Positions 38,629 through 42,148 of a DNA stretch of 64,000 nucleotides are shown piece after piece. The DNA comes from Ignavibacteria bacterium. Its GTDB lineage: Bacteria > Bacteroidota > Ignavibacteria > Kapaibacteriales > UBA4661. The translations under genes and the position numbers were made by a program. The notes beneath the pieces are model-generated. The model had not been told where the DNA came from and ran no database searches. It worked only from the letters and a program-made list of their open reading frames with translations. Position 1 is the first letter of the stretch; each line of letters starts with the position of its first letter. The stretch covers positions 62,001-126,000 of the forward strand of contig JACVZY010000110.1 of assembly GCA_014654705.1 (NCBI GenBank), given 5' to 3'.

Positions 38629-39423
38629 CTATTCACCCACACGCTTCATCGAAAAAACCACCTCACCAAAACGCGCCGGAACGTGAAACCGATTTACCAG
38701 CGTCGGCGACCAAGCGGATAATTCTTTCGTCGGGAAACGGTCAATGCGATAAAAATTCATACGCCACTTGTCGCCATCAGCAATCGGTGGCAAATTTACA
38801 GGCTGAATATCTGCTAGCGGCAATGCCATCTCCACCGTCCAACTTGTGTCTCGGTCAGTGGAATTATTGATTGTACCATGAAGTTGCGTTGCCGAGCGGA
38901 TGTTGAGTGTGTAAGCGTTATAGGGCAGCGCAACAGGCATAAAACCTCGTACTTCGCGGACATACAAGTCCAGAGCTGTATTGGCAGGACTAATTTCAAT
39001 TTCGGTATAACCAAATTTTTCGGGCGAATATGGCGAAAAAAAGATCTCAATCACCTCTTCTTCCCAGAGTTTATCGTCTCTGCGTGTCATGCGCCCAACG
39101 ATGTCCGTGTCGGTACATTCAAAAGCAATGTAAAGATTTGTGCTGTCCCAGAGAACCTTTGCGGAGGTTGCTAACTGCGGTTTTGTCAGACTATCGGTTA
39201 CAATCAAATTGCCCGTAGATGAGGCTTTCAGCCATGATTGTTCGTTCAGTATGCCATCAATAACAATAGCGCCATTGGTGCGAAATATTGTAAGTTGGTG
39301 GGGAGTGTCTTGCAGGAGATTTTGACGGAGAGGAACAAGCGAAGTCAATCCACCAAGCAAAAGCATGGCTATTGCTCCAAAGAGCAAGGTGCTTATTATA
39401 CCCATACCGGCGAGAGGTCTCAT
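38629..39423 (-). CDS. Membrane-anchored CBM9-like carbohydrate-binding protein
   Basis: A 264-aa protein with an N-terminal membrane segment (about 8-30, LLFGAIAMLLLGGLTSLV) and then a CBM9/DOMON-like beta-sandwich (about 45-264). The sandwich shows IDGILNEQSWLKA at the start, LWDSTNLYIAFECTD, EEEVIEIFFSPYS, WTVEMALPLADI and WRMNFYRIDR, the usual order in stand-alone CBM9-like proteins. Such domains bind sugars or act as secreted heme-binding sandwiches. It is next to nagB, 75 nt apart, consistent with amino-sugar use. Its upstream region was invaded by a MITE (39463-39656), which probably separates it from its original promoter. Confidence 0.8.
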   Translation of the reverse strand: MRPLAGMGIISTLLFGAIAMLLLGGLTSLVPLRQNLLQDTPHQLTIFRTNGAIVIDGILNEQSWLKASSTGNLIVTDSLTKPQLATSAKVLWDSTNLYIAFECTDTDIVGRMTRRDDKLWEEEVIEIFFSPYSPEKFGYTEIEISPANTALDLYVREVRGFMPVALPYNAYTLNIRSATQLHGTINNSTDRDTSWTVEMALPLADIQPVNLPPIADGDKWRMNFYRIDRFPTKELSAWSPTLVNRFHVPARFGEVVFSMKRVGE

Positions 39424-39448
39424 ACCTTAAAGAATAGGGTCTCGTTAA

Positions 39449-39772
39449 TATAACCGAAAAACGGTTCTAAATGATTTTAGTTGGAAACAATAATGGTACA
39501 AAAACATCGTGATAGCCAAGCAAAAAAGCGGCTTTTAGCATTTTATCCTTATCGTTAAACAACGCACAGGGCTAAAAAACCATGAGTTAAAGACCGCATT
39601 AAACATTGCTTCTCCGATGACTCATGTTGCCATTCCAACTGAAATCATTTAGAACCCGAAAAACTATCGGAACGCGCATCCAGCATTGAATAGACTTACC
39701 GGATTTTTGAGTATAACCGAAAAACTATCGGAACGCGCATCCAGCATTGAATAGACTTACCGGATTTCTGAG
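39449..39772. repeat. 61-bp tandem duplication, one copy split by a MITE
   Basis: The unit starting TATAACCGAAAAAC is intact at 39712-39772. A second copy starts at 39449-39462, is interrupted by the 194-bp MITE plus its 8-bp target duplication, and resumes to 39711. The span 39449-39711 is 263 nt; minus 202 nt it is exactly 61. The two copies differ by one base (T/C near their right ends). The duplicated unit is the 3' end of the TonB_C-like gene. Confidence 0.9.
39463..39656. mobile_element. 194-bp MITE with 23-bp inverted repeats and 8-bp target duplication
   Basis: The terminal inverted repeats at 39463-39485 and 39634-39656 match at 22 of 23 positions (ends GGTTCTAAATG... and ...CATTTAGAACC). 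They are flanked on both sides by CGAAAAAC (39455-39462 and 39657-39664), an 8-bp target-site duplication. The element has no ORF and must be moved by a transposase elsewhere. Several IS families make 8-bp duplications (IS66, IS1595, IS256, ISAs1), so the parent cannot be named. It sits between the CBM9-like and TonB_C-like genes. Confidence 0.88.
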
Positions 39773-40193
39773 CAGGAATCAACACTGCTTTTTTAATCGC
39801 TTCTAACGCAGAATCCTTAAACTCACGGAATTCTGCATTGGTTCTGATTCCTTGCGCACATTCGGCAAATACTTCGCTTGCTTTTCCTTGCTCATCAACT
39901 AAAACAATAAAGGTAAATATCGCTTGTAGTCCAAGCCTTTTTGCCCTTTCGGGATAGACAAGGTTACGAGATAGTTCTTTCCTATCCAGATACGGCTCTG
40001 TATCTACATGAATCGTCTTTCCCAGAAAGGGAAGCGAATCAATCGCTGCGGAAGAATACACACCGTAGCCTTTAGAAAGTCCGCTAGGAAAAGTATTCCA
40101 CCCGCAATCTTCTGCTGTAAACGGCTGCTGCTGTGCAGAAGAAATAGCATTTACCGCAGCCAGAAGGAGAAAAATAAGAAAAATGCTTTTCAT
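39696..40193 (-). CDS. Secreted TonB C-terminal-domain-like protein (copy 1)
   Basis: A 165-aa protein with a signal peptide (MKSIFLIFLLLAAVNAISSAQ) and a TonB_C-like fold: YPERAKRLGLQAIFTFIVLVDEQGKA, then ALEAIKKAVLIPAQKSGK and WMRVPIVFRL. Unlike real TonB it has no inner-membrane anchor or Pro-rich linker, so it is probably periplasmic or an outer-membrane-facing protein. Two Cys (FAEC, IQCW) are shared with its neighbour and could form a disulfide. The stop lies inside a 61-bp tandem duplication: after RVPIVFRL the frame runs into the second copy and ends YSKIR, so the native C-terminus was probably altered by a few residues. Confidence 0.7.
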   Translation of the reverse strand: MKSIFLIFLLLAAVNAISSAQQQPFTAEDCGWNTFPSGLSKGYGVYSSAAIDSLPFLGKTIHVDTEPYLDRKELSRNLVYPERAKRLGLQAIFTFIVLVDEQGKASEVFAECAQGIRTNAEFREFKDSALEAIKKAVLIPAQKSGKSIQCWMRVPIVFRLYSKIR

Positions 40194-40226
40194 AATAGGC
40201 TTAAAACTGGTGAAATACTTACACCG

Positions 40227-40865
40227 TTACGGCAAACGGTAGTGAATAGGAATTCTTGTCCAGCACTGCAAAGGCTTGCCCTCACGCTGCGCTGGCTCAA
40301 ACGTTACCGATTGAAGCGCTGCAATAGCATTCGCTTCGAGAGCCTCTATTTCCTCAATGCTAAGTTCAGCGTCCCATTTGGTATTTTTCGGATTAAATGC
40401 TTTAACACATTCCAGCATATGGCGGTCAAGTTTTCCTTTTTCGTCCACCAGCACCATCAACGATACCCATGCTTCTTTTTTTGCGGATTTTAAGGTTGGT
40501 GGGTGTGTGAGTTTGCTCATCAGCACTTTGGGGTCGAGATGCGGTTCGGACTCAATTCCCATGCTATTTCCCGGACATGGTACTTTATCAGAAATAATCG
40601 TTTGCCCCAGATGGCTTGCCGATTCGTTTTTTGCTTCCTGCTCACACGGCGAAATCTTTGTGTGAGCGTGTTTGTGTGCGTGTTCGTGCAGTGCACTTGC
40701 TTTCAGATGCGGGTGCGCTGAAGATTTCGATGGTTGTGCCATTATTTGGCTTGACGGCAGACTAAGCAAAAGGCAAAGCACCATAGCAGCACTCATGGTC
40801 GTACCAATAGCAACACCAAACGGCATTTGCTGAGCGGTATTTTTTGATAGTAGCAGCTTCTGCAT
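40227..40865 (-). CDS. Secreted TonB C-terminal-domain-like protein with His-rich segment (copy 2)
   Basis: A 212-aa paralogue of the downstream gene, 33 nt away. The start at ATG 40865 is fixed by AGGAGAA 6 nt upstream; the frame extends further but into a palindromic repeat. A hydrophobic signal region (about 20-42) precedes a His-rich stretch (HPHLKASALHEHAHKHAHTK), which could bind metal. The C-terminal domain shares EPHLDPKVL, LMVLVDEKGK, FEPAQREGKPLQCW and IPIHYRL with copy 1, including the paired Cys. No true TonB box-interacting partner can be named. Confidence 0.7.
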   Translation of the reverse strand: MQKLLLSKNTAQQMPFGVAIGTTMSAAMVLCLLLSLPSSQIMAQPSKSSAHPHLKASALHEHAHKHAHTKISPCEQEAKNESASHLGQTIISDKVPCPGNSMGIESEPHLDPKVLMSKLTHPPTLKSAKKEAWVSLMVLVDEKGKLDRHMLECVKAFNPKNTKWDAELSIEEIEALEANAIAALQSVTFEPAQREGKPLQCWTRIPIHYRLP

Positions 40866-40871
40866 AATACG

Positions 40872-40878
40872 TTCTCCT
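40872..40878 (-). promoter_or_regulatory. Shine-Dalgarno site fixing the start of the His-rich TonB_C-like gene
   Basis: AGGAGAA on the minus strand, 6 nt before ATG 40865. Confidence 0.6.
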
Positions 40879-40889
40879 AAAAAATGTGG

Positions 40890-41034
40890 TCGTATATTGT
40901 TCAGATATTGATGACAGTTAGAAGCATAGAATGCAGAATTGTAATTCCGCCGTTTCCGTGAGAAATACTTTGCAGAATTACAATTCCGCACTCCTTCGTA
41001 CCGTACAATCTCGCTAAACAATGTGGTAAGAATT
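40890..41034. repeat. Dispersed palindromic repeat, copy A
   Basis: An imperfect fold-back of about 145 bp. The left arm (from TATTGTTCAGATATTG) pairs with the right arm (to CTCGCTAAACAATGTGG), with GAATTGTAATTC and GAATTACAATTC near the centre. The right arm matches copy B at 48464-48558 (ATTCCGCACTCCTTC and CTAAACAATG in the same order and spacing). Its right end reaches the stop of the acyltransferase gene. Confidence 0.65.
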
Positions 41035-42148
41035 ATATTTTGATAAAGATATTCCGTTTGTACAAAACGTAAGCAATTGTCCAGAATACTAGATTATATG
41101 CTACGGCAAAGGCAAGTGAAGCATTGAGTGGGTTTGCAAACATTGGTACAAAAACAGCATTGTAGAACGCATTTTTCAAGGCGAGCTGTGTTCCATCGGC
41201 TTGCGTTACCGTAAAGAAAATGATAAGTTTCATCACCATCACTGACAAGAAGTAGCTTGCAAGCGCATTCATACCATAAACGACAAAAAATTTCGCCCAT
41301 TTTTGCCAGCCTTGCACGTCAATAATCCAATAGAACGAACCGAACATCAGTAACGCCCAACCAGCCATGAAGACCGTGTATGAGCTTGTCCAGAGGCTTT
41401 TGTTAATCGGCATATACCAATCCCAAACTCCCCCCGCTATCAAGCAGACAAATCCCGCAAAGAGCATCCACGCTGCTTTTTCAGCACGAGACATCTCAGA
41501 GCGCAATAAATACCCCGTCAGCGAACCAAAAAGCGTAGTGGCAACAGCAGGAAACGTACTCAAAATCCCTTCCGGATCCCATGTTTTGGACTGCACCCAC
41601 ATATGCCCCGTAAGAAAGAGCGAATCAATGTACGCCGCAAGGTTTTTGCCCGGTTCCATAAAGCCTGCCCCCAGTTCCGGCACCGGTATCAGATACATCG
41701 CTGCCATATATCCCAGCAGCAGACCCGCAATCCACATAGCTTGGGCGCGGGGCTTGAAGTTCAGCATAATCGCAGCGCCAATGGCATAACAAATCGCAAT
41801 GCGCTGCAATACGCCCGGAATACGAACCGTCTCAAAGTTGAAGCGTGGCACGATGTTCAAGACAAATCCCAAGAAAAAAATAATCGCAGCACGACGAGCC
41901 ACTTGCTTGAAAAGGTCTATCCTGCTGTCGCCCCGCTCCAAACGGTTTGCCATCGAATAGGTCATCGAAACACCAACGATGTAGAGGAAAAACGGGAAAA
42001 TCCAATCCGTAAACGTCCATCCGTTCCAGCGAGCGTGCAGAAGCTGCGGATACGCTTGCGTCCAGCTTCCGGGGCTATTCACCAAAATCATTCCGGCGAC
42101 GGTAAAGCCTCGAAAGGCATCAAGAGAAACTAAACGCTCGTTTTTCAT
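41033..42148 (-). CDS. NagX/HGSNAT-like multispanning acyltransferase (DUF5009 type)
   Basis: An integral membrane protein (371 aa, about 10 helices) of the family of heparan-alpha-glucosaminide N-acetyltransferase and bacterial NagX. It opens with RLVSLDAFRGFTVAGMILVNSPGSW, carries FTDWIFPFFLYIVGVSM, and later RIPGVLQRIAICYAIGA, the hallmark blocks. Such proteins move an acetyl group across the membrane to an amino sugar or have an uncharacterised role in chitin/GlcNAc loci. The location between nagB and namZ supports an amino-sugar role. It probably forms an operon with the downstream-facing paiB and namZ genes (gaps 18 and 21 nt). Confidence 0.88.
   Translation of the reverse strand: MKNERLVSLDAFRGFTVAGMILVNSPGSWTQAYPQLLHARWNGWTFTDWIFPFFLYIVGVSMTYSMANRLERGDSRIDLFKQVARRAAIIFFLGFVLNIVPRFNFETVRIPGVLQRIAICYAIGAAIMLNFKPRAQAMWIAGLLLGYMAAMYLIPVPELGAGFMEPGKNLAAYIDSLFLTGHMWVQSKTWDPEGILSTFPAVATTLFGSLTGYLLRSEMSRAEKAAWMLFAGFVCLIAGGVWDWYMPINKSLWTSSYTVFMAGWALLMFGSFYWIIDVQGWQKWAKFFVVYGMNALASYFLSVMVMKLIIFFTVTQADGTQLALKNAFYNAVFVPMFANPLNASLAFAVAYNLVFWTIAYVLYKRNIFIKI

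Follow-up and report, generated by a model that had tools for sequence, protein, structure and literature searches.

The window is a 64,000-nucleotide stretch of DNA from an Ignavibacteria bacterium. Within it, a 194-bp element lies between two genes on the same strand, encoding TonB_C-like and CBM9-like proteins, and splits one unit of a tandem repeat. The features are as follows.

38629-39423, minus strand: CBM9-like gene (PF06452, E = 7e-11), a synteny anchor in congeners
39449-39711, minus strand: distal 61-bp unit (39449-39462 plus 39665-39711), with the element and one target repeat between its two parts
39455-39462, plus strand: target-site duplication copy 1, CGAAAAAC
39463-39656, no strand assigned: 194-bp element, a probable non-autonomous ISL3-type MITE, judged by its TIRs, 8-bp flanks, three homologues in congener G004 and hairpin fold
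39463-39486, plus strand: left TIR, GGTTCTAAATGATTTTAGTTGGAA, matching the other arm at 23 of 24 positions; the first 25 bases of the element equal the right end of an ISL3 IS in congener G001
39633-39656, minus strand: right TIR, GGTTCTAAATGATTTCAGTTGGAA, identical at 24 of 24 positions to the left end of the same IS
39657-39664, plus strand: target-site duplication copy 2, CGAAAAAC, a perfect 8-bp repeat of copy 1; 8-bp duplications also occur at other copies of the element
39696-40193, minus strand: TonB_C-domain gene of 165 aa (PF03544, E = 1.1e-11), with a C-terminus, judged by translation, changed by duplication
39712-39772, minus strand: 61-bp unit beside the gene body, uninterrupted, holding the last codons of the TonB_C-like gene (sequence comparison)

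An earlier note on this DNA described an element of 194 bp with 23-bp inverted repeats matching at 22 positions. The length stands. The arms do not: each is 24 nt, and 23 of 24 positions are complementary. As also claimed, the same 8-bp sequence is found on both sides. With up to three mismatches allowed, only the two arms match the TIR in 64 kb, and shuffled sequences are expected to give 0 matches. Note that no ORF of at least 60 aa lies inside 39463-39656, so the element has no transposase gene. The 194 bp fold as a single long hairpin (-64.8 kcal/mol, z = -6.7 against shuffles). Rfam gave no match for the element. Promoter and terminator scans returned nothing clearly above shuffles, and nothing within the element.

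Removing the element and one 8-bp copy does restore the claimed 61-bp unit, which matches the neighbouring unit at 60 of 61 positions. The single difference is C in one and T in the other, and the spacing of the units is 263 bp (61+194+8). The duplication is at the 3' end of the TonB_C-like gene, as described, with the refinement that the element itself is outside the coding sequence. A repeat of 61 bp does not preserve the reading frame, 61 not being divisible by three; the frame runs on into the second unit and gains SKIR before a new stop. The stop codon now in use therefore comes from the distal unit, read in a different frame. Read from the sequence, the predicted end of the protein changes from RLY* to RLYSKIR*, a gain of four residues; one 61-bp unit joined to the present outer flank would read ...VFRLY and then stop. 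The element occupies the 3' untranslated stretch, 39 bp past the present stop codon, and on its other side the CBM9-like gene starts 39 bp away (31 bp with the target repeat counted). Since it lies between this stop and this start, no gene is broken. We predict that the TonB_C-like protein was altered by the duplication only, not by the insertion. The element may affect the CBM9-like gene.

In the window's own genome (G000; 5.72 Mb in 118 contigs, 99% complete), the 194-bp element is the sole full copy. This census of copies rests on searches. There were 10 matches to the TIR pattern, compared to 0 for a reversed control, and a profile search (E up to 1) gave 13; all of the other copies are decayed. 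Relatives here include one of 151 bp with a 7/8 duplication (L003), and decayed elements of 176 bp (L011) and about 197 bp (L012).

Elements of the same family are present in six congeners (G001, G002, G004, G005, G006 and G007). With the profile, at E up to 1, the ends matched 58 times in G005, 52 in G001, 45 in G004, 13 in the window's own genome, 12 in G006 and 8 in G002. The same profile and threshold detected no end of this family in G003. G007, which is outside the profile set, gave 12 matches in a separate search. The closest homologues are in G004, where three elements of 187-194 bp are 89-91% identical to that in the window. Copies of the inverted repeat occur elsewhere in the window's own genome and in congeners. 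Further copies of 190-200 bp with 8-bp duplications, looked for on the suggestion of the earlier note, were found in part: there are elements of similar size with duplications, and full-length sisters only in a congener. Among 31 distinct copies, the 8-bp flanks agree at 8/8 positions in 10 and at 7/8 in five, where about 2% is expected with swapped right flanks. Around half of the copies are without a clear target duplication, including the three relatives of the 194-bp element in G004. We infer that copies without matching flanks are older insertions or rearranged sites. One nested insertion was seen at L052:201-1571 (G005:C14:80525-81895), where the outer 183-bp MITE has an 8-bp duplication of its own, AATACTCA.

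Outside the genus, order-level relatives G011 and G012 gave matches only at chance-level E-values of 0.2-0.4. A search of 84,980 species genomes, bacterial and archaeal, for the exact 20-base core returned 41 stretches, all in Candidatus Kapaibacterium/Ignavibacteria MAGs; as an exact-match search misses diverged ends, this result covers close relatives of the end sequence. Viral contigs contained no match to the end. Two weak matches in plasmid records are inside relaxase genes, and were rejected as chance.

The earlier note named a full IS with matching ends as support for its reading, and one is present in congener G001. This 1175-bp IS (G001:C230:1-1175) has the same 24-bp ends and an uninterrupted ORF of 389 codons (373 aa from the ATG). 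The encoded transposase belongs to the ISL3 family (NF033550, 221.6 bits for a cut-off of 180; PF01610, E = 1e-41; PF13542, above cut-off), and the match to Zn_ribbon_ISL3 is weak (17.3 bits for a cut-off of 25.5). The copy is located at a contig start, and the best pairing of loose ends for its target duplication is 7/8. Several other G001 contigs end inside IS sequence. This is the usual short-read sign of a repeat, so the IS is apparently multi-copy. Decayed or fragmentary ISL3 relatives are present in G002 and G007. In G009, from another genus of the family, there is a 37-residue match, 65% identical, with a TIR-like end adjoining. We found no ISL3 transposase in the window's own genome, by protein or family-profile search, though a short relic could escape; the family profile missed fragments in G002 that the protein search detected. 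Given this result, the 194-bp copy would be stranded in its present host. We consider the G001 IS the likely mobiliser, as judged from the matching ends and the intact transposase. Note that the element and this IS have only around 25-28 bp in common at each end, and that the interior is without detectable similarity. Origin of the element from the known ISL3 IS by simple internal deletion was considered and rejected, since no similarity was detected between the interiors.

The element has the properties of a MITE: a length below about 500 bp with TIRs, no transposase, target duplications of constant length, dispersed copies and a partner with the same ends. Our preferred reading, to which we give a probability of roughly 0.93, is that the 194-bp segment is a MITE with 24-bp ends that a DDE transposase of the ISL3 family would recognise, that it inserted into a pre-existing duplication, and that the transposase was later lost. 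It is very improbable that the segment is instead a conserved intergenic hairpin, such as a REP-like or regulatory RNA element, that did not transpose. The fold is far better than that of shuffles, and many relatives have structured interiors, as such an element might. However, a strong fold follows from inverted repeats in any case, and an immobile hairpin does not sit well with 8-bp target duplications, differing host loci, a matching full IS and the lack of an Rfam match. Nor was a conserved element position, at orthologous loci across species, seen for this locus. We give still less credence to movement by another transposase family. The suggestion comes from G005, where a 1371-bp unit has a DDE_Tnp_1 (IS4-like) transposase between near-identical TIRs with an 8-bp repeat. 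However, this unit is nested: inserted within a 183-bp MITE is a 1179-bp IS that has separate ends, CTATGTACACGACAAAA and CTTTGTACACGACAAAA, and a separate 9-bp duplication, GGTACAGAC. The inner ends and inner 9-bp duplication rule out the 1371-bp unit as a second autonomous element.

For mobilisation by an ISL3 enzyme, the order of events can be reconstructed as follows. A 61-bp tandem duplication would already have existed, and would already have shifted the stop codon of the TonB_C-like gene, adding the four residues. An ISL3 transposase, active in the ancestor or supplied in trans, would then have moved the element into the distal 61-bp copy. Later, the window's genome would have lost the transposase, leaving the 194-bp copy and a few decayed copies stranded. 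The earlier note proposed the same order, and its placement of the element in the distal unit is correct. That duplication came first and insertion second is the simplest reading, not a proven one; it is a parsimony argument, because no relative has the TonB_C-like gene without the element. We looked for an empty site by synteny in the sampled congeners, and found none for this gene. In G001, G002, G005 and G006 the TonB_C gene at 39696-40193 is missing between the CBM9-like gene and a second TonB_C gene. In G007 a homologue (41%) occupies another place in the cluster, and the short spacer downstream of it has no room for the element. The 263-bp arrangement itself was found in no relative. More broadly, the cluster at window positions 38629-42148 (CBM9-like gene, TonB_C gene or genes, membrane protein) is conserved in congeners. 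The first TonB_C gene is absent from their clusters or, in G007, sits on the opposite side of its paralogue.

Logically, the order could be reversed. The MITE might have entered a single copy, with the tandem arising by unequal exchange with an element-free chromosome, or by duplication and precise loss. All that can be read at the locus is that the element is present in just one of the two 61-bp units, and both routes give this arrangement. However, for the reversed order, chromosomes of two types must have coexisted or the element must have been excised exactly, where a single duplication and a single insertion suffice for the direct order, and comparison of synteny in congeners uncovered no empty single-copy relative. 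We regard the reversed order as unlikely. With duplication first, the locus would show layered mutation in a small space: a tandem duplication that shifted the frame would have given one gene a new terminus, and the mobile element that arrived afterwards would have hit the redundant unit, doing no more harm.

ISL3-type MITEs of about 180 bp, and their mechanism, are already known. In Microcystis aeruginosa PCC 7806, a 187-nt ISL3-type MITE has ends in common with a 1,215 bp ISL3-family IS and is flanked by 8-nt direct repeats (PMC11448079). It folds as a stem-loop, is mostly intergenic and has 31-33 identical copies and moved recently (PMC11448079). The element described here is similar in length, in ends common with an ISL3-family IS, in its 8-nt repeats, in its stem-loop and in lying between genes (PMC11448079). 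The differences are also clear. The Microcystis ends are 9 nt, matching GGCTCTTCG, whereas those here are 24 bp, beginning GGTTCTAAATG; the many identical Microcystis copies contrast with a single intact 194-bp copy here; and Microcystis, a member of the Cyanobacteria, has the ISL3 partner alongside the MITE in one genome, whereas the window's own genome lacks it (PMC11448079). For Methanosarcina acetivorans, a MITE of ISMac21 (ISL3) is listed with the values 179, 6, 22 and 7, which we read as, in turn, its length, copy number, inverted repeat and direct repeat (PMC3852290). Going by this listing, length and an ISL3 partner are again similar, although the host is an archaeon (PMC3852290). Compared to ISL3-family IS (NF033550, PF01610), the window element encodes no protein and has only the ends in common. 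The earlier note held that such elements are rarely described in this group; in keeping with this, searches of the open-access literature turned up no description of a MITE from Ignavibacteria or Kapabacteria. Here, there is an ISL3-type MITE group in the Kapaibacterium lineage. Our analysis provides this group, together with a likely partner IS, for a lineage represented here by MAGs only.

The family comprises subfamilies with differing interiors, in elements of about 150-200 bp. Many relatives still fold strongly after 26 bases are trimmed from each end (compared to mononucleotide shuffles, a weaker control). One speculative explanation, which we think considerably more likely to be wrong than right, is that MITE subfamilies across the genus, with unrelated hairpin-forming interiors, are sustained by one ISL3 TIR, outlive the transposase in most species, and are re-mobilised when the IS returns by transfer. 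If so, these elements would owe their persistence partly to selection for folded interiors. Two minor observations concern unusual copies. At L064:1525-1597 (G004:C20), a 73-bp element consists of little beyond two 24-bp ends back to back. At two G001 contig ends (the first 139 bases of L106 and L129) there is a repeated sequence with the same 24-bp end and an interior unlike that of the ISL3 IS, possibly a further MITE subfamily or IS.
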